DNA from: Alistipes sp.
Lineage (GTDB): Bacteria > Bacillota > Clostridia > Oscillospirales > Ruminococcaceae
NCBI GenBank assembly: GCA_023667265.1
Contig: JAMPAJ010000001.1
Location: 1,231,151 to 1,295,150 of the forward strand
Reading direction: 5' to 3'
DNA: 64,000 nucleotides
Shown here: positions 4,677-52,100 of the stretch, piece by piece
Position numbering within the stretch: position 1 is the first letter of the stretch
Layout: the number at the start of each line of letters is the position of its first letter
The notes under the pieces: generated by a model
Database searches by the model: none
What the model was told of the DNA's origin: nothing
The model's input: the letters and a program-made list of their open reading frames with translations, nothing else
Made by a program: the position numbers and the translations under genes

Positions 4677-6511
4677 GACCTGTCACCATCCTTTGAAGCC
4701 CTTTTCCGGCTGTCTGCCGCCGTATCGTTTACAAGGCATCCCGGCGCTGTTCCGATAAGGTCGAAACGCCCCGCCTTTTTAAGCGCCTCCAGCACAAGAT
4801 CTTTGTTCTGGGGTCGGAAATACTGGAGCAGCGCTCTCTGCATCGCCTTTTCCTTCGGAGTTTTCGGCACATACACCTTTTCCATAGTATACGGGTCAAG
4901 CTCCGTGTAGAACATACTTGTTGAGATCGTTCCCGGCGTGGGATAGAAGTCCTGCACCTGCTCCGGACGTATCTTGTTATCCCGAAGGAAAATCGCAAGC
5001 TCAACCGCCTCGCTCAGCGTGCTTCCGGGATGTGAGGACATGAGATATGGAACAAGATACTGCTCCTTCCCTATACCCTTTGTAATTTCATAAAAACGCT
5101 TCTGGAAAGCCTTGTAAGCCTCGATATGCGGTTTTCCCATTTTATCAAGCACCACCGCCGAACAATGCTCCGGCGCGACCTTGAGCTGTCCGCTTACATG
5201 ATATTTTATCAGCTCACGGATAAACTCGTCATTTTTATCCTCCATAAGGTAATCGTATCTTATTCCCGAGCGGATAAAAACCCTCTTGACGCCGTTCACC
5301 TTGCGTATCTTCCGCAGAAGAGCGAGATATTCCCTGTGATCCGCCTTCAATGCCGGACAAGGCGTGGGCGCAAGACATTTTTTTCCCATACACAGTCCCT
5401 TTTCAAGCTGCTTTTCACAGGATGTATGCCGGAAATTCGCCGTCGGACCTCCTACATCGTGGATATATCCTTTGAAATCCGGCATTTTCGTTATCCTATC
5501 CGCCTCTGCAAGAACCGACTCCTCGCTCCGGACGGTTACGCGTCTGCCCTGATGAAGAGCGATCGAACAGAAGTTGCAGTAGCCGAAGCAGCCGCGGTTG
5601 TGGGTAATTGAAAACCGCACCTCTTCGATCCCAGGAACACCGCCCTCCGCCTCATATGACGGGTGATAACGCCGGGTATACGGCAGGCTGTAGATATAAT
5701 CCAGCTCCTCTGTCGTAAGGCTCTTAGCCGGAGGATTCTGCACAAGCATCATTTTTCCGTGACGCTGGATTATAGTCTTGCCGTAGACCTCGTCCTGCCA
5801 GTCGTACTGTATCCTTGTCGCCTTTGCATATTCTCTCTTGCTCTCGCGAACCTGCTCCAGAGACGGACACTGTGCCGCTCCGAGAGGCGTATTCACAGGC
5901 TCTGTCATGTAACACGTTCCGCGTATATCATGAATATCATGTATATTCTCTCCTGCCGCAAGACGGCTGCAAAGCTCCTGTATCTGGTGCTCGCCCATGC
6001 CGTACATGAGAATATCTGCGCCGCTGTCCGCCAGAATAGACGGACGAACACAGTCGTCCCAGTAGTCATAATGTGCAAACCGGCGGAGAGAAGCCTCCAG
6101 TCCGCCTATCGCCAGCGGCACGTCCCCGAAATATTCGCGGATCTTCTGACAATACACGATAACGGCTCTGTCCGGACGTTTTCCAGCCTTTCCGCCGGGA
6201 GAGTATGCGTCGTCGGAACGCTTTCTCTTAGCCGCCGTATAGTGAGCCACCATTGAGTCGATATTTCCGGAGGTCACAAGAAAAGCATATTTCGGCGCGC
6301 CGAATCTGCGGAGATCCCGGTCGCTGTGCCAGTCCGGCTGCGATATGATGCCAACGGTAAAGCCCATCGCCTGGATAAGACGCGTAACGATCGCCGCCCC
6401 GAAGCTGGGGTGGTCAACGTAGGCGTCGCCTGTTACGTAGATAAAATCAAATTGTTCGATTCCAAGCTTCTCCATTTCCCGTTTTGAAACCGGTATAAAC
6501 TCATCGTACAT
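4559..6511 (-). CDS. YgiQ-family radical SAM protein
   Basis: Radical SAM enzyme of the YgiQ (UPF0313) family; the substrate is unknown. The [4Fe-4S] site NRGCFGYCNFC lies around residue 310-320, preceded by a B12-binding-like N-terminal half (VTGDAYVDHPSFGAA). It is followed by family blocks such as RVFIRSGIRYDYL, KVAPEHCS and QVQDFYPTPGT. GAGGTG upstream supports the start at 6511. The core ends near residue 600. The last 45 residues are an Arg/Lys/Ser/Gln-rich low-complexity tail that overlaps the start of the next gene in another frame. Tail length varies in this family, so the tail may be a by-product of read-through rather than a functional domain. Confidence 0.9.
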   Translation of the reverse strand: MYDEFIPVSKREMEKLGIEQFDFIYVTGDAYVDHPSFGAAIVTRLIQAMGFTVGIISQPDWHSDRDLRRFGAPKYAFLVTSGNIDSMVAHYTAAKRKRSDDAYSPGGKAGKRPDRAVIVYCQKIREYFGDVPLAIGGLEASLRRFAHYDYWDDCVRPSILADSGADILMYGMGEHQIQELCSRLAAGENIHDIHDIRGTCYMTEPVNTPLGAAQCPSLEQVRESKREYAKATRIQYDWQDEVYGKTIIQRHGKMMLVQNPPAKSLTTEELDYIYSLPYTRRYHPSYEAEGGVPGIEEVRFSITHNRGCFGYCNFCSIALHQGRRVTVRSEESVLAEADRITKMPDFKGYIHDVGGPTANFRHTSCEKQLEKGLCMGKKCLAPTPCPALKADHREYLALLRKIRKVNGVKRVFIRSGIRYDYLMEDKNDEFIRELIKYHVSGQLKVAPEHCSAVVLDKMGKPHIEAYKAFQKRFYEITKGIGKEQYLVPYLMSSHPGSTLSEAVELAIFLRDNKIRPEQVQDFYPTPGTISTSMFYTELDPYTMEKVYVPKTPKEKAMQRALLQYFRPQNKDLVLEALKKAGRFDLIGTAPGCLVNDTAADSRKRASKDGDRSWQKSKAGREVHGARQKGSSGRSQKQAGGKNQRKNRRNG

Positions 6512-6523
6512 TTTTTCACCTCT

Positions 6524-9121
6524 TTATGCCTGATTGTCAAGCATTCTCATTTTCCATTCGTCAAACTGCATCTTGGACATAATGACCTTTCTCGGCTTTG
6601 CGCCCTCGGTAGGTCCGACAATTCCGCGTTCCTCCATATCATCCATGATACGGGACGCTCTTGCATAGCCCAGCTTCAGCTTTCTCTGGAGCAGCGTTAT
6701 GGATATCTGTCCGAGATTTACAGCTACCTCCGCTGCCTTCACCAGGTATTCCTCGTCGCTTCCGGCCTCGATAACGCCGTCAATTCCGCCGCCGTGGTCT
6801 CCCTTGCCCTGGGGCATGAAATTCTCCACAGCGTCAATGATGCTGTTGTCGTATGTGCTCTGTACCTGAGAACGAATGAAATTCAGCGTCTCATTGATAT
6901 CCTTGTTTGAAGCGAAGCAGCCCTGAACACGAATTGGCTTGCTTGTTCCTATAGGCATATACAGCATATCGCCGTTGCCAAGCAGCTTATCCGCGCCAGC
7001 CATATCAATAATAGTTCGTGAATCCACCTGGGACTTAACGGAAAGCGCGATACGGCTCGGGATATTCGCTTTGATAAGACCGGTTATAACGTCGGTGGTA
7101 GGACGCTGAGTTGCAACGACAAGATGTATTCCTGCTGCTCGTCCCATCTGTGCCAGACGGCATATGGAGTCCTCGACGTCCTTTCCGGCAACAAGCATCA
7201 TATCCGCAAGCTCGTCAATAAATATGACTATCTGCGGCATATGCGGAACATCCTCGTCCTCGTCCGCTATTTCATTATAAGAACGCAGGTCGTTTGCACC
7301 TATATCCGCAAATGTGTTATACCTGCGCATCATCTCATTTACCGCCCAGTTAAGAGCGCCGGCAGCCTTTTTCGCCTCGGTGACGATAGGAATAAGCAAA
7401 TGGGGCGTTCCCTCAAACACCTTGAACTCAACGACCTTCGGGTCGATCAGGATTATCTTGACCTCGTCGGGAGTCGCTTTATAGAGGATACTCATGATAA
7501 TGGAACGCGTGCAGACGGATTTTCCCGAGCCTGTTGTTCCAGCTATAATGACGTGAGGCATTTTCGTGATATCGCCGATAATGGCATTTCCCGTGATATC
7601 CTTTCCGACGGCAAAGGTAAGCTTGCTCTGTGCGCTGCGGTATTCCTGGGTCGACAGCATCTCGCGGATAGTAACGGTATCCTTGTTGATGTTCGGCACT
7701 TCGATACCCACCGCCGCTTTACCTGGAATAGGCGCTTCGATACGAACGCCCTGCGCCGCAAGACTTAGAGCAATGTCGTCCTCAAGTCCCTTTATCTTGG
7801 AGACCTTTACGCCCGCTCCGGGCTGGATCTCATAACGCGTTATGGACGGTCCGCGGTAGATGCTCTTGATCTTTACCTCTACGCCGAAGCTTTTCAGTGT
7901 GTTGACGATGATATCAGCCTTTTCACGCATTTCCGCAGCCGCCTGAGCGCTGTTGGAATTTATATCCGGAGGCGTAAGCAGGTCAAGTCCCGGAAGAATA
8001 TACAGCGGAAGCTGCGGCTCTTCCTTCTTTTCCTCTTTTTTGATTCCGAAGGCCGCTTCATCCTGCTTCGCCTTTTTCTCAGCGGCACGTGTGATAAGCG
8101 CGTCAAGCTCCGGATCATCGTCGCCTTTTTTCTCCTCAGCAGACTTCTCGTCCGGGATAGGCACATCGAAAAGCCGGCTGAACTCGTACTGCTCCTCCGA
8201 CTGCTCAGCAGTTTTCTCAGCAGGCTCTGCACTATCAAGCAGACCGTATATGGGCAGGTCTATGGAATCCTCACGGCTGTTCACCATTTCGATCGCCTCG
8301 ATGTCCTCGTCAAAGGAGCGCTTTTCCATTTCGTCCTCGTCCTCTTCAACATAAAAGGCGTCCTCGAAATCGCCTCCCATAAACACATTATGTATGCCGG
8401 AAAGACACTGTCCGATGAAGATAAACGGCTTTGCAAGAAGCTTCAGAAAATCAAAAATATCCTTTCCTGTCAGCAGCAGCACCGACACAAAGATCAGCAG
8501 CGCTATCACGATACTTGCGCCGAGCCTGCCCAACATACGCAGCAGAACTCCTGCCAAAAGCATACTTATCACGCCGCCGCCCTTGAAATTAACTCCGTCT
8601 TTATAGAGAAGCGAAATATTTTTCTTCACTCCATATCCCGGCAGATCCCCGACCAGAAAGATCTGCACCGCCGAGGACAGCGTGATAACAAACAGAACCA
8701 TAAGCCACATATATTTTTTTCTGCTCTCGCTGCGTTTTCCGATCAGTATCGACGACGCTATTATCGCCGAGGGTACAGAAATTGCCGTCACGCCGAAAAC
8801 GCCCAGCATCCAATGATGTATCGCTCTCCAGCCGTCCGCGCCCTTGAAAAGTACAACGAGCGCGAAAAATACGCCTATGGCAAAAAGCAGTACCGAGACT
8901 ATCCTTGCGGTCTCCTGATCCTCTCGCTCAAATTCCTCTTCAAGCGGATCTGTTTCAGCAGCCGGAGCAGCTTTCTGCTTTTCAACCGTTTCAACAGTCT
9001 CCTGGTTGATCTCTTCATTCTGCGCAGCAGACTTTTTTCTTCGTTTCGGCTTGCCGCTGCTTGTAAAATCCTCGTCTCTGAAATCCGCTCCCATGGGCGC
9101 TTTTTTTCCTCTGCCTGCCAT
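6524..9121 (-). CDS. ftsK: FtsK/SpoIIIE DNA translocase
   Basis: Septal ATP-driven DNA pump for chromosome segregation. The 865 residues begin with a basic stretch and about four membrane segments (residues 75-215). An acidic Glu/Asp-rich linker follows, then the motor: IIAGTTGSGKSVCTRSII (Walker A, near 535), IVIFIDELADMM (Walker B) and VVATQRPTTDVITG. The C-terminal gamma winged-helix domain (SITLLQRKLKLGYARASRIM) reads KOPS/SRS-like polar sequences. CGGAGGAACA precedes the ATG at 9121. It lies directly downstream of a TepA-like gene, the arrangement also seen next to spoIIIE in Bacillus. Whether it acts in division, sporulation or both cannot be told from sequence. Confidence 0.96.
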   Translation of the reverse strand: MAGRGKKAPMGADFRDEDFTSSGKPKRRKKSAAQNEEINQETVETVEKQKAAPAAETDPLEEEFEREDQETARIVSVLLFAIGVFFALVVLFKGADGWRAIHHWMLGVFGVTAISVPSAIIASSILIGKRSESRKKYMWLMVLFVITLSSAVQIFLVGDLPGYGVKKNISLLYKDGVNFKGGGVISMLLAGVLLRMLGRLGASIVIALLIFVSVLLLTGKDIFDFLKLLAKPFIFIGQCLSGIHNVFMGGDFEDAFYVEEDEDEMEKRSFDEDIEAIEMVNSREDSIDLPIYGLLDSAEPAEKTAEQSEEQYEFSRLFDVPIPDEKSAEEKKGDDDPELDALITRAAEKKAKQDEAAFGIKKEEKKEEPQLPLYILPGLDLLTPPDINSNSAQAAAEMREKADIIVNTLKSFGVEVKIKSIYRGPSITRYEIQPGAGVKVSKIKGLEDDIALSLAAQGVRIEAPIPGKAAVGIEVPNINKDTVTIREMLSTQEYRSAQSKLTFAVGKDITGNAIIGDITKMPHVIIAGTTGSGKSVCTRSIIMSILYKATPDEVKIILIDPKVVEFKVFEGTPHLLIPIVTEAKKAAGALNWAVNEMMRRYNTFADIGANDLRSYNEIADEDEDVPHMPQIVIFIDELADMMLVAGKDVEDSICRLAQMGRAAGIHLVVATQRPTTDVITGLIKANIPSRIALSVKSQVDSRTIIDMAGADKLLGNGDMLYMPIGTSKPIRVQGCFASNKDINETLNFIRSQVQSTYDNSIIDAVENFMPQGKGDHGGGIDGVIEAGSDEEYLVKAAEVAVNLGQISITLLQRKLKLGYARASRIMDDMEERGIVGPTEGAKPRKVIMSKMQFDEWKMRMLDNQA

Positions 9122-11603: not shown

Positions 11604-11783
11604 TTAGTGCAGCACCGCACAAGGATCGTGCGGCAGATGTACAGTCGGATTTTTCGTTATGTTGCATAAAAACGACGCAGGCATACTGTCTTATGTCAAG
11701 AAGTTTTTGTGTAATATGATGTCAAATTCGCAAGCAGATGACGTGCAAAGTCGTCATACGAGCTTTGTGCGGTGCCGCCTTAG
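11604..11783 (+). repeat. MITE-like nested palindrome, family 1, full-length copy in the cdaA leader
   Basis: About 180 bp. The ends are imperfect inverted repeats (left TTAGTGCAGCACCGCAC, right GTGCGGTGCCGCCTTAG) around a central hairpin near 11669-11706 with arms AAAAACGACG and AGAAGTTTTT. It is recognisable along its whole length as the same element as the one at 28811-28988, in opposite orientation. No transposase is encoded. It sits between the candidate cdaA promoter and the cdaA ribosome site, and an open frame runs through it into cdaA, which explains a misleading longer start for that gene. Confidence 0.82.
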
Positions 11784-11814
11784 AAATACATACACAGAAA
11801 AAGGAAGTGAGAAC

Positions 11815-12693
11815 GTGCCGTCCTTTCAAGATATGAAATACGCATTTTTCAGCCTGATGAGTACAATTGAACTAAAAGATATAATTGACCTTGCCGTTCT
11901 GTCATACATAATCTATCTGCTTCTGAAGCTTATACGCGAGACGCGTGCAGGACAGCTTGTCAAGGGTATCCTTCTCCTTGTGGCTGCTTATTTCATAAGC
12001 GGTCTGCTTGAGCTGACCGTTATGGAATACATACTCGGTCATGCCCTGGACATCGGACTCCTCGCTATGCTGATTCTTTTCCAGCCGGAAATAAGACGCG
12101 CACTGGAGCAGTTCGGTACAACCAAATTCGGCATAAAGCTCATTGGAATCGGGCCGTCGGACGACGAGAAAACACGCTGGAATACAGCTATCGAATCTAT
12201 CTGCGACTCCTGTGTGGAGCTTTCCGCAAGCTGTACAGGCGCGCTTATCGTTATCGAACGTCAGACAAAGCTCGGCGAACAGATCGAAACCGGAACGATG
12301 ATGAACGCGATCCCCAGCAAAGAGGTCTTCGGCAATATCTTCTATCCCAAAACTCCGCTTCACGACGGCGCAGTCATTATACGCGACGGCATGATACTTG
12401 CGGCAGCCTGCTTCCTGCCAAGACCCAAAAGCGATCTGCAGATCGACAAGGCTCTCGGCTCACGTCACCGTGCAGCTATCGGCATGAGCGAAAACTCCGA
12501 CGCGGTCGTTATCGTCGTGTCAGAAGAAACAGGGCAGATCTCCATTGCCATGAACGGCGTCCTTACAAGAGACTACACCCATGATAAGCTTAAAGCCGCT
12601 CTTGAACGGGAGATCTTCAACGAATCCTCCGAGGACGGCGGAATAGCTAAAAAGACTTTCTCTTCTTTTTTCGGAAGGAGGAAGAATAAATGA
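11815..12693 (+). CDS. cdaA: Diadenylate cyclase CdaA
   Basis: Makes c-di-AMP from two ATP at the membrane. Three membrane segments (residues about 18-38, 45-65, 70-92) are followed by the DAC domain. The catalytic DGA motif is in LHDGAVIIRDG and the RHR motif in GSRHRAAIGMSE. I choose the GTG at 11815 (292 residues) because AAGGAAGTGAG lies just upstream and the encoded N-terminus runs straight into the first membrane helix. Upstream in-frame starts lie inside the repeat element and would add about 50 unrelated residues. It overlaps cdaR by 4 bp. The usual third partner glmM is absent here; glmS is at 58875. Confidence 0.94.
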   Translation: MPSFQDMKYAFFSLMSTIELKDIIDLAVLSYIIYLLLKLIRETRAGQLVKGILLLVAAYFISGLLELTVMEYILGHALDIGLLAMLILFQPEIRRALEQFGTTKFGIKLIGIGPSDDEKTRWNTAIESICDSCVELSASCTGALIVIERQTKLGEQIETGTMMNAIPSKEVFGNIFYPKTPLHDGAVIIRDGMILAAACFLPRPKSDLQIDKALGSRHRAAIGMSENSDAVVIVVSEETGQISIAMNGVLTRDYTHDKLKAALEREIFNESSEDGGIAKKTFSSFFGRRKNK

Positions 12694-14039: not shown

Positions 14040-14049
14040 ACATTCTATT

Positions 14050-14078
14050 CAGCACCGCACAAGGATCGTGCGGTGCTG
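14050..14078. repeat. Solo family 1 terminal palindrome after cdaR
   Basis: CAGCACCGCAC, 7-nt loop AAGGATC, GTGCGGTGCTG: an 11-bp perfect stem identical in its left half to the start of the 11604 element. It starts 11 bp after the cdaR stop. It has no T-run, so it is a stabilising 3' hairpin at most, and is best read as a repeat copy in which the two ends are fused without the internal part. Confidence 0.75.
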
Positions 14079-14197
14079 CTCTCAGAACTTGTTCTCATAA
14101 ATAGTCAAATGATGCTGAAGCGTAGGCTTCGGCATTATTATTATTACGTTTTATGTTTTAATCAATTAACATAAATTTAACACATATTTTTTCTATA

Positions 14198-19145: not shown

Positions 19146-19199
19146 TAGGCCAACACTGCACAAAGCACGTCTGACGAGCAATCTCTGTGCGGTATTGCC
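19146..19199. repeat. Deleted copy of the family 1 element in the sigma-operon leader
   Basis: Starts TTAGGCCAACACTGCACAAAG and ends TGTGCGGTATTGCC, the same ends as the 28811 element (TTAGGCAACACC... and ...GCGGTGTTGCC). Only about 20 bp of interior remains (CACGTCTGACGAGCAATCT). It lies just upstream of the GATAAGGAGG ribosome site of the gene at 19223. Confidence 0.72.
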
Positions 19200-28624: not shown

Positions 28625-28783
28625 TAGGCGGTGAGCCACCGCTGCAAATCACACGTAACCGCTCACAAGGTTCGTTAATTAGAGCGTGTTCACATAAAAT
28701 TTAAGGCATTTTTCCGCGAGCAATATCAATATAAAAAAATCTTCTCAACAACTGTTGCATTTTTTGCTATAATATAGTATAAT
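28625..28783 (+). promoter_or_regulatory. Promoter-bearing repeat module upstream of the CE2 esterase
   Basis: Begins with the hairpin GCGGTGAGCCACCGC (28627-28641) and ends with TTGCAT (28755-28760), 17 bp, TATAAT (28778-28783). The same order of hairpin, AT-rich middle with CGCG, and TTGCAW promoter recurs at 30756-30937, 30935-31029 and 37912-38005. Similarity in the middle is low, so membership of this copy is less sure than for the last two. Confidence 0.55.
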
Positions 28784-28810
28784 AGTAATTAGAGGTGTTC
28801 GCAGGATACT

Positions 28811-28988
28811 TTAGGCAACACCACACAAAGCGCGTCTGACGACTTTGCACGCCATCTGCTTGCGAATTTTCCGTCATCTTACACAAAAACTCCTCGACAT
28901 ACTAAAGTATGCCTGCGTCGTTTTTATACAATCTGACGAAAAATTCGACTGCGCATCTGCCGCACAATCTTTGTGCGGTGTTGCCTTA
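28811..28988. repeat. MITE-like nested palindrome, family 1, full-length copy in the CE2 esterase leader
   Basis: 178 bp with inverted ends TTAGGCAACACCACACAAAG and CTTTGTGCGGTGTTGCCTTA. The centre is a hairpin with arms AAAAACTCCTCGACATAC and GTATGCCTGCGTCGTTTTT around TAAA (28885-28925). No open frame for a transposase. It aligns over its whole length with the element at 11604-11783 in reverse. It lies between the promoter at 28755-28783 and the ribosome site of the gene at 29025, so it would be part of the mRNA leader. Confidence 0.88.
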
Positions 28989-42009: not shown

Positions 42010-42048
42010 TTAGGCAACACCGCACAAAGATTGTGCGGTGTTGCCTTA
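42010..42048. repeat. Solo family 1 palindrome overlapping a stop codon
   Basis: GGCAACACCGCACAA, loop AGA, TTGTGCGGTGTTGCC: a perfect 15-bp stem made of the two ends of the family 1 element without interior. Its right edge (GCCTTA) supplies the TAA stop of the gene at 42046-44397 and its left edge touches the ribosome site of the histidine kinase gene. It could reduce read-through between the two. Confidence 0.88.
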
Positions 42049-49962: not shown

Positions 49963-51954
49963 GTGAAAAATAAATTTCCGGCATCCATTCTGACCGTGGT
50001 GCTTGTTGTACTACTGAGCCAGGTTTTCCTGTCTCTGGCGCTTTTCAAATTCGATAGAACATACGGACTTGTCGGATTCGTACTGTCAGCATTTACGGCG
50101 ATCCTGATGATAATTTCAGCCGCCGCATTTTCCCGGAACTCCATAAAGCGCATTTCCAGAATGAATGCACACCTGGAGACCTCCGCTGCCGAATATATGA
50201 ACAGCCTGCCTGCCCCTATCGCGGTCATCGACCCTGACGGCAAGATCGTCTGGTACAACTGCACATTTCTCGACAGGATAAGCAGCGGAAACGATGTTTA
50301 CGGTCTTGATTTCCAGGAACTTCTGAAGCTCGATATTTTATCGATCCAGGAGGGCAATACTTCAGAATGTCAGGTTAACGGCTCAAGCTACCGGATAATG
50401 CTGGAAAAATTCAGCGAAAACGACATCTCGTTCCTTATTATATATTTCCATGACATATCCGAGTACCACGATCTGAGGAGGCTTCACGCCGAGACCAGAC
50501 CGAACGTTGTCGTCATAACGATCGACACCTATGAGGAGATAATGCAGAATGCCAAGGAAACCGAAAAAGCGCGTGTTTCCGTAGAAATGGAGCAGCTTAT
50601 GGAGCAGTTCATGGGCAGTACCAACGGCTTTGTAAAGAAAATTTCCTCAAATACGTTTTACGCAGTCATCGAGAATCAGCATCTTGAAGAAAAAATCAGC
50701 AACCGCTTCAGGATACTCGACCTTGCACGAGGTATAAAAATTGCCGGAAAGTACCCTCTTACGCTGTCTATCGGCGTAGGTGCAGGCGCAGAATCTCTTG
50801 CAGACAGCGAAAAGATCGCACGGCAGTGTCTCGATATGGCTCTCGGACGAGGCGGAGATCAGGCTGTTGTGAAAACGGAAAACGGCTACCGCTTTTTCGG
50901 AGGAGTTTCCAAGGGCGTGGAGAAGATGTCCCAGACGAAAACGCGTATTATCGCCAACGCCATGCAGGACGTTATCATGAACGCCTCTACGGTATATATT
51001 ATGGGACACCGCTTCGGAGACCTCGATTCCGTCGGCTCTTCATGCGGTCTTGCCGGAGCTCTGCGTCTTCTCGGAAAGGATGTACACATAGTAGTTGACA
51101 GGCAGAAAAATCTCGCACCGAATCTCATTGACGCTGTTGAAAAACAGGCAGGCGAAGGGCTGTTTATCACTCCGTCTGCGGCAATTTCATCAGTCGGCGA
51201 CAACGACCTGCTCATAATAGTTGACATCCACAACAAGGACTTTATCGAGTCGCCGGAGCTGTATCAGAGATGCAGGCAGGTCGTCGTAATAGACCACCAT
51301 CGCAAAACCGTCAATTTCATCGACAACGCCGTTATTTTCCACCACGAGCCCTACGCTTCGTCGGCATCGGAAATGGTAACGGAGATCATAAGATATTTCA
51401 ATTTCAAAAGCGACGAAAAGCTTCCTACGATCTATGCGGAGGCTCTTCTCGCCGGAATTATGCTCGATACGAAGAATTTCGTCATGCGTACCGGCGTTCA
51501 TACATTCGAGGCTGCGGCATTCCTTAAAAAGCTGGGCGCGGACACGGTGGCTGTAAAGCTGCTTTTCTCCAATTCCTTTGACTCGTACAAAAGAAAATCC
51601 CAAATAGTCGCCGCCGCGAAAATACACAGCAAATGCGCAATTGCCGCCGCTGATTTCAAATCAGACGACATACGCATCGTTGCACCGCAGGCAGCGGACG
51701 AGCTGCTGTACATAACCGACGTGGACGCTTCGTTCGTGCTCTATAAAACAGGCGGCACGGTGAACATCTCAGCCCGTTCCCTCGGCGCAGTGAACGTTCA
51801 GGTCATTATGGAAAAGCTCGGAGGCGGCGGTCACCAGACTATGGCTGCCGTACAGCTTGAAAACAAAACAGTTCAGGAAGCCGTAAAGGCTCTCATAAAA
51901 GCAATTGATGCCCGTGAAAAGGAAACGGAGCAGACCGAGAGCCTGTGTTCATAG
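49963..51954 (+). CDS. gdpP: GdpP-type c-di-AMP phosphodiesterase
   Basis: 663 residues: two membrane helices (about 7-55), PAS-like domain (75-170), degenerate GGDEF domain (180-310), then DHH/DHHA1. DHH motifs are VYIMGHRFGDLDSVGSS, LLIIVDIHN, VVVIDHHRK and the DHHA1 GGGGHQTMAAV. It hydrolyses c-di-AMP, opposing CdaA encoded at 11815. Start is a GTG with AAGGAG upstream, 12 bp after rnj. The last codons and the TAG stop lie inside the terminal repeat of the element at 51939-52100, so the C-terminal few residues (ESLCS) come from an insertion. Confidence 0.94.
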   Translation: MKNKFPASILTVVLVVLLSQVFLSLALFKFDRTYGLVGFVLSAFTAILMIISAAAFSRNSIKRISRMNAHLETSAAEYMNSLPAPIAVIDPDGKIVWYNCTFLDRISSGNDVYGLDFQELLKLDILSIQEGNTSECQVNGSSYRIMLEKFSENDISFLIIYFHDISEYHDLRRLHAETRPNVVVITIDTYEEIMQNAKETEKARVSVEMEQLMEQFMGSTNGFVKKISSNTFYAVIENQHLEEKISNRFRILDLARGIKIAGKYPLTLSIGVGAGAESLADSEKIARQCLDMALGRGGDQAVVKTENGYRFFGGVSKGVEKMSQTKTRIIANAMQDVIMNASTVYIMGHRFGDLDSVGSSCGLAGALRLLGKDVHIVVDRQKNLAPNLIDAVEKQAGEGLFITPSAAISSVGDNDLLIIVDIHNKDFIESPELYQRCRQVVVIDHHRKTVNFIDNAVIFHHEPYASSASEMVTEIIRYFNFKSDEKLPTIYAEALLAGIMLDTKNFVMRTGVHTFEAAAFLKKLGADTVAVKLLFSNSFDSYKRKSQIVAAAKIHSKCAIAAADFKSDDIRIVAPQAADELLYITDVDASFVLYKTGGTVNISARSLGAVNVQVIMEKLGGGGHQTMAAVQLENKTVQEAVKALIKAIDAREKETEQTESLCS

Positions 51955-52100
51955 GATAAGCCGCGCGGATTTTCGGCAAATTTTGCCGATTACTGCGTTG
52001 AAAATCCTTGACATACATCAAGTATGCCTGCGGATTTTCGCCTTGCACTCGGCAAAATTATGCTCGAAAATCCGCACATCTTCCCTATTAACACAGGCTC
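51939..52100. repeat. MITE-like nested palindrome, family 2
   Basis: 162 bp bounded by GAGCCTGTGTTCATAGG (51939-51955) and CCTATTAACACAGGCTC (52084-52100), complementary at 16 of 17 positions. Inside are further inverted arms (GCGGATTTTCGGCAAATTTTG... and ...GCTCGAAAATCCGC) around a central hairpin GACATAC-ATCAA-GTATGCCTGCG (52010-52032). The outer and middle arms differ from family 1 but the centre is the same as at 28896-28917. No coding capacity. The left end overlaps the gdpP stop codon. Confidence 0.88.

Follow-up and report, generated by a model that had tools for sequence, protein, structure and literature searches.

Two families of palindromic MITE-like elements share a central hairpin and point to a modular superfamily

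Results

Palindromic elements in the window

The window, that is, the whole stretch of 64,000 nucleotides analyzed here, contains a palindromic element of family 2 (F2) between a gdpP-like gene and the gene for ribosomal protein L9, and elements and core-less derivatives of family 1 (F1) at other positions (Table 1). F1 and F2 elements are approximately 160–180 bp long, have no transposase gene inside, and occur in many copies in the genome from which the window was taken. The RNA fold of F2 was much more stable than that of shuffled sequence (z = −11.4), and the z value of F1 was −5.9 (computed on positions 28810-28988). In F2, the right-hand counterparts of the left tags, CCTGCG and GCCTTG, come after the core hairpin. 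The core stem of the third F1 copy carries one mismatch.

The reading frame of the gdpP-like gene terminates within the F2 end (51939-51954), and its final codons and TAG stop codon come from the inserted element. Two c-di-AMP genes, those of the GdpP-like phosphodiesterase and a CdaA-like cyclase, adjoin or overlap elements of the window, and the placement of elements at both is possibly due to chance.

Table 1. Palindromic elements, their parts, and the genes beside them in the 64-kb window.
Feature	Position	Strand	Detail
F2 element, 162-bp near-perfect palindrome	51939-52100	+	ends GAGCCTGTGTTCATAGG / GAGCCTGTGTTAATAGG
Core hairpin of F2	52010-52032	+	GACATAC-ATCAA-GTATGCCTGCG
F2 left tags CTGCGTT and CCTTG	51993-52010	+	flanking A/T stem (CTGCGTTGAAAATCCTTG)
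F1 element	28814-28985	+	ends GGCAACACC / GGTGTTGCC
Core hairpin of F1	28896-28917	+	GACATAC-TAAA-GTATGCCTGCG
Third F1 copy, ends diverged	11609-11779	-	core 11676-11699
Core-less F1 derivative, 33 bp	42013-42045	.	two ends only
Core-less F1-like derivative, 33 bp	14048-14080	.	
Core-less F1 derivative, 51 bp	19149-19199	.	
Lone end of the GAGCGTGTTCACATAAA shell	28682-28698	+	nearby partner not seen
gdpP-like gene	49963-51954		
Ribosomal protein L9 gene	52129-52575		
CdaA-like cyclase gene	11659-12693		

A core hairpin common to F1 and F2

The centers of F1 and F2 have TTG[AC]CATAC-loop-GTATGCCTGCG in common, and their ends and arms are unrelated; the window F1 element has TCG in place of TTG beside the core. 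The first-pass annotation had placed both core hairpins correctly, and the A/T-rich stretches outside the hairpin do pair, as it claimed. Its description of two families with unrelated outer parts around a shared core was borne out by the window copies and by 28 identical bases, TCCTTGCCATACATCAAGTATGCCTGCG, common to an F1 copy (L020) and an F2 copy (L002). The stretch shared between F1 and F2 amounts to only about these 28 bp, and the identity of the whole interiors was 54%, compared with 47% for shuffled interiors.

Allowing at most one mismatch, GTATGCCTGCG occurs five times in the window against 0.99 expected, a number that none of 100 shuffles reached. The exact paired pattern GACATAC-loop-GTATGCCTGCG was found eight times in the genome of origin, and its reversed control was never found there. 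Among 148 genomes of the same family (the genome of origin included), 11 contained the core pattern, and all controls were zero. A scan of a species-genome collection gave at least 119 stretches with the core; the 80 of them that were listed came mostly from Ruminococcus, other Oscillospiraceae or Clostridia, and two came from Desulfuromonadales (L127 and L131).

The core is not invariant. Twenty further stretches were fetched, of which 12 had the core and eight were core-less. Other right-hand tags (e.g., GTATGCTTTCGC) were present in 11 of the 12 core-bearing stretches, and the left-hand tags differed too (e.g., CTCACCATAC) in 10 of these 11. Tag variants occur in the genome of origin, where F1 copies with AATGC/GCATT and CAGGC/GCCTG stems were seen as well; eight F2 loci retain CCTTG together with a CCTGCG- or CCTTCG-type right tag. 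Inspection spoke against protein coding, since loops of four or five bases change the reading frame. A double-hairpin unit of roughly 56 bp is inserted in the core-hairpin loop of several F1 copies (L032, L034, L036, and L039; also L258), and a different but similar unit lies beside the core in the F2 copies L007, L008, and L257.

Kinds of ends around the core

The kinds of ends, or shells, were examined at 128 distinct cores from loci L001-L212 with at least 110 bases on each side. The flanks were palindromic at 111 of them, as judged by pairing above the 99th percentile of 300 random sites, the best of which outscored many of the 111. Thus, the case that would have spoken against a modular layout, a core found mostly outside palindromes, did not arise. 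The other 17 cores include copies broken by insertions (L007, L061, and L177) and copies with one arm lost (L110, L150, and L192). The sole core with neither palindromic flanks nor a recognizable shell, L089, is probably a chance occurrence, at the level that we estimate for so large a scan.

Shells were assigned by end patterns because the arm alignment ran too far into the A/T-rich flanks. Several shell types surround the core across genomes, as the first-pass annotation had anticipated, and ten kinds of ends were recognized: S1 (ends GGCAAYACC, 64 of the 128 cores), S2 (GARCYTG, 13), S3 (GGAAACGCTGATTAAAT, 5), S4 (GGGCACCTCTAAAAACC, 5), S5 (TACTAAACGCTATAGC, 4), S6 (TACTAAGTATCATTAAA, 4), S7 (GTGTTGACACTATC, 2), S8 (AGAGGGTGTTTGCAAA, 1), and two that were required on one side only, S9 (CCAAGTCGGTTTTTGCAGGC, 6) and S10 (CGATACGCCTGAAAACAAATA, 2). 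The 22 cores outside these patterns include variants of them and a Desulfuromonadales end, GATGGCGTCGCAAAAA.

Common interiors and hybrid elements

The interiors of S1, S3, and S4 elements were 85–91% identical across shells, whereas shuffled interiors gave 47–48%; their 24-bp ends were 50–65% identical across shells, for which the chance level is probably similar to that of the shuffled interiors or higher. Two S1 copies compared with each other had interiors of 85% and ends of 92–96% identity. Interiors of F2-like shells showed 77–90% identity, and F2 is one of several end types on one interior. A single continuum of divergence is unlikely for F1 and F2, and it may partly hold among the F2-like end types.

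Two hybrids are known, both in the genome of origin. In L258, a GAGCGTGTTCACATAAA-type left arm (98.6% identity over 72 bp) meets an F1-like right half (78.5% over 158 bp) at the core; this hybrid could have arisen from a deletion joining two neighboring elements. L249 has the left end GAACCTGTATTTATAGG and an interior and right end of the GAGCGTGTTCACATAAA type, with an F1 element inserted within. Modular assembly, a shared core in distinct shells as first proposed, is supported by the ten kinds of ends, by interiors common to unrelated ends, and by these hybrids. A small G-rich hairpin insertion was observed at the same right-arm site in S1 copies (L154:1952-2141 and L177:4651-4840) and an S4 copy (L189:2646-2836); either end exchange or repeated site-specific insertion would explain it.

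Target duplications and transposases

The elements have terminal inverted repeats and, as is typical of MITEs, target duplications of fixed length, 4 bp in F1-type and 3 bp in F2-type elements. Exact 4-bp duplications were present at 57 of 83 S1 (F1-type) end pairs, compared with 11.7 expected from exchanged flanks, and at five of six S4 end pairs (0 expected). Exact 3-bp TNA duplications (TAA, TTA, and TGA) were present at 10 of 16 S2 (F2-type) end pairs (4.3 expected). The excess of 4-bp duplications at S3 end pairs was slight (six of eight; 3.7 expected). With the boundary that was applied, the GAGCGTGTTCACATAAA shell showed a duplication in 0 of 10 cases, and the edge bases of the two TACTAA shells were always identical and thus uninformative on duplication. 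The duplications of the window copies are imperfect (CGA/TGA for F2 and TTTA/TTAA for F1). F1 and F2 are both MITE-like. An F2-type element at L021 (approximately 1501-1678) holds an inserted F1 element with a TTGA duplication.

Since the duplications are 4 bp for F1-type and 3-bp TNA for F2-type elements, one mobilizing enzyme for all shells is unlikely. The suggestion that the core is a common recognition hairpin for such an enzyme is also opposed by L264 and L265, two 51-bp core-less F2 derivatives that are scarcely more than two ends and have kept matching 3-bp flanks. In addition, no recurring core-linked transposase was found among the 30 listed clusters of open reading frames near the core (loci from L047 on). 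By our reading, the cluster with the most loci (10) was an ABC-type ATPase.

An autonomous relative with matching ends was found for the S4 shell only: L189, a locus with an S4 MITE, also contains an intact IS5-family transposase gene (5777-7019) bordered by S4-type ends, and no duplication is visible at this insertion sequence. The genome of origin gave no matches for PF01609, PF13586, or the L189 transposase. Fifteen genomes yielded no autonomous partner with ends of F1 or F2, and none of the transposases in the searched genomes was flanked by an F1 or F2 end pair. The behavior of F1 and F2 is therefore that of MITEs served by different transposases, of which the searched genomes gave no present-day source. 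At L277 (947-2778), two inverted palindromic elements that differ at two positions in 161 bp enclose an insertion sequence of the ISAs1 family; it was rejected as an autonomous parent and taken as a neighbor because its enzyme comes with separate inverted repeats, located inside. L282 (1468-2289) holds an 821-bp insertion sequence whose DDE transposase gene is interrupted and whose ends, TTTAGAGCCTGTTGACACTA, resemble two of the shells.

Fold and mismatched tags

Covariation was analyzed in 51 aligned F1-interior elements (50 of 67 elements and the window copy; rows with insertions or deletions and shortened or misassigned elements were omitted), using a 64-pair structure drawn by hand from the palindrome. 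Both sides changed in 45 of the 64 stem pairs. Covarying cells numbered 263, compared with 68.5 in shuffles, none of 500 being as high, and sequence relatedness and DNA-level arm correction may add to these counts. Paired cells made up 88.7%, compared with at most 48.5% in slid controls. The covarying structure takes in a 3-bp side hairpin. An automatic consensus fold had 27 pairs only (the ends, the side hairpin, and the core hairpin), with part of the right arm self-paired.

Beside the hairpin, CCTTG stands opposite CTGCG, and these tags are mostly unpaired. Many interiors have a second, flipped copy of the tags one stem further out (CTGCGTT...GCCTTG). Both outer tag words were found in 10 of 41 non-redundant cores, whereas 271 permuted word pairs averaged 0.31, with six at most, and the words with swapped sides gave 0. 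Other stems occur between the same tags in nine hairpins with degenerate tags and five with strict tags, whereas permuted strict tags gave 0 on average. Most members of alignment A1 were found via the core pattern, which biases its tag conservation, and this conservation was not counted as evidence.

Recurrence of the tags in other phyla

Five of 199 genomes of a phylum sample (the genome of origin included) contained the general pattern CTGCGTT-N-GCCTGCG-N-GCCTTG, as did 16 of 58 genomes of Desulfuromonadia, the class of the Geopsychrobacter record L127; the reversed control was absent from both sets. A shorter tag pattern was noisy (eight matches and three controls in four genomes). In Desulfuromonadia, the CCTTG/CTGCG mismatch motif recurs beside other stems. 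A perfect stem of at least 4 bp lay beside CCTGCG in 18 of 30 distant matches, taken from the 62 listed outside the genome of origin, compared with 3.5% in shuffled segments. A match on a Trichlorobacter lovleyi plasmid is a true relative with a diverged left tag, and matches on Cupriavidus plasmids did not show the motif. At four loci of Desulfuromonadia (L216, L231, L224, and L225), elements of two different shells lie directly at the stop codon of the same gene, which by its reading appears to encode a cobalamin-type methyltransferase.

Evidence for action as RNA or DNA

A search of Rfam above the gathering cut-off gave one tRNA only in the whole window and nothing for the element alone, and no match over the elements was obtained at 18 distant loci. 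On the CCTTG strand, 42 G.T cells were counted against 99 A.C cells (25 against 35 as distinct states). The first-pass annotation had alternatively proposed a common RNA motif with exchangeable outer stems. The fold is indeed conserved with covariation, but the missing Rfam match and the fewer G.T than A.C cells do not favor the RNA side of that proposal.

The position of neighboring genes was examined with crude gene calls on the retrieved loci. Edges of elements often fall at the stop codons of genes. Of the 66 upstream genes on the CCTTG strand in Oscillospiraceae, 14 stop at 79-81 bases, which corresponds to the S1 edge (L101, among them, is not S1), compared with five of 57 at the corresponding edge of the other strand (68-70 bases). 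In Desulfuromonadia, 12 of 21 genes on the CCTTG strand stop at 22-26 bases, where none of 19 on the other strand do; four of these 19 stop at 52 bases, the edge of another shell. The CCTTG strand was the sense strand in 39 of 56 co-directional gene pairs in Oscillospiraceae and in nine of 18 in Desulfuromonadia. From these sequence features, an RNA role for the elements is possible.

Discussion

The results lean towards the view that F1 and F2 are palindromic MITEs and belong to a modular superfamily, in which ends have been exchanged around a conserved folded center. Mobilization of each copy would be in trans, by a DDE transposase for which the outer 15-20 bp suffice, and different shells would be served by different transposases, IS5-family types serving at least one of them. 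The interior would be a folded module, centered on the core, that occurs with many different sets of ends. Hybrids with two different ends may arise when copies recombine, or a template switch occurs between them, within the A/T stretches by the hairpin or within shared arms; correction of one arm by the other would then make the new shell symmetrical. The core would still be common to F1 and F2 because it is innermost, inside every exchange point. Because of the tags, with CCTTG mismatched against CTGCG, the palindrome stays imperfect, and these tags are probably favored in the folded state.

Exchange alone does not explain the recurrence of the tags in Desulfuromonadia. It is possible, though doubtful, that the core and the CTGCG/CCTTG tags instead form a structure recognized by a widespread DNA- or RNA-binding factor of the host. 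Unrelated MITEs with this motif would spread, or be tolerated, better, and the motif would be kept or regained in many shells and phyla. This accords with both tag pairs being found in the phylum sample and the class of L127 and in no reversed control, with different stems between the same tags, with the perfect stems beside CCTGCG in distant matches, and with outer tags on both sides of a quarter or so of the non-redundant cores. However, nearly all core-bearing fetched stretches have variant inner tags, core-less copies exist, and there is no candidate factor; the motif could also have spread with one element, through common descent or horizontal transfer.

We consider it unlikely that the elements act after transcription as functional RNA, for example, as 3′-end structures for mRNA decay or termination, with the shells as exchangeable outer stems. 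The covarying fold with its side hairpin, the edges that meet stop codons in the CCTTG strand sense, and the bias of that strand in Oscillospiraceae gene pairs would fit such a role, and the passages seen of a report on a related Geobacter family refer to predicted short RNA elements (PMC2700814). Against it stand the ratio of G.T to A.C cells, the absence of an Rfam match, and the ambiguous strand bias in Desulfuromonadia, where the gene pairs are evenly divided and the genes on each strand meet an edge of their own; moreover, DNA-level arm correction can also yield covariation.

Simple common descent, in which the ends of one element diverged by ordinary mutation without exchange, is very unlikely. 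The F2-like ends (GARCCTGT.TTCATAGG, GAACTTGTTCTCATAGG, GAGCCTGTTCATTATCTC, and GAGCGTGTTCACATAAA) do look like a graded series on one interior, but the interiors of S1, S3, and S4 elements match across shells as well as those of two S1 copies do while their ends differ, the duplications are 4 bp in one type and 3 bp in another, and hybrids occur. It is scarcely credible that one enzyme recognizes the core hairpin itself, or that the core is an independent mobile hairpin landing in the centers of palindromes: the same core does occur in many shells, and small hairpins do insert in the core loop (L032, L034, L036, and L039), so that hairpin loops can be targets, but the duplications differ per shell, no transposase is linked to the core, only one of 128 cores lacks palindromic flanks and a shell, about the chance level by our estimate, and the interiors are common well beyond the core.

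A broader suggestion can be made, in which we place little confidence, that CTGCG facing CCTTG, present as two mutually flipped copies around a spacer stem, is the signature of an undescribed class of palindromic mobile elements that crosses phyla. A conserved host factor would read the motif in its folded form, and transposases and sets of ends that are unrelated would be interchangeable around it. If the tags are under selection, they would point to a factor that handles folded palindromes, and such a factor might explain why genomes tolerate these repeats next to stop codons and within operons.

Definitions of MITE families usually rest on the ends. In the modular superfamily favored here, the ends look exchangeable and the folded interior persists, and therefore families defined by ends would hide one superfamily. 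The layout was not described in the passages available from the open-licence literature on Ruminococcus MITEs, modular or palindromic repeats, and end exchange. Like IS5-family MITEs, the elements are short, non-coding, and palindromic, with terminal inverted repeats and target duplications of fixed length, and at L189 an S4 MITE has an IS5-family element with S4-type ends as its neighbor; unlike them, one interior has several unrelated end sets, and one core runs across all. A likeness to attC, dif, IS91/IS200 hairpins, and rut sites was considered and set aside. A MITE named Chunjie is reportedly present in Geobacter. ERIC and BOX sequences differ from those of the F1 and F2 elements, and we know of no end exchange around one core in either. 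ERIC and BOX resemble these elements in being palindromic or modular intergenic repeats, approximately 100–150 bp long in their case, that can fold in transcripts (for ERIC, see PMC2267715). The passages available on REPs tagged with GTAG/CGTC describe small palindromes with conserved unpaired tags in several phyla, a feature in common with the present elements (PMC3733652). According to the same passages, REPs are 20–40 bp long with the tag at one end, whereas F1- and F2-like elements are approximately 160–180 bp long, have terminal repeats and duplications, carry their tags internally, and lack the GTAG/CGTC end tag (PMC3733652). In Geobacter metallireducens, 24 predicted short RNA elements with a central palindrome, GRCGTAGCGCTGCTACGCC, are reported in the passages seen of one paper, which call them intergenic RNA elements and make no mention of shells, mobility, or Firmicutes relatives (PMC2700814). 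The same palindrome occurs unchanged in L224, between CCTCG and CCTGCG tags.
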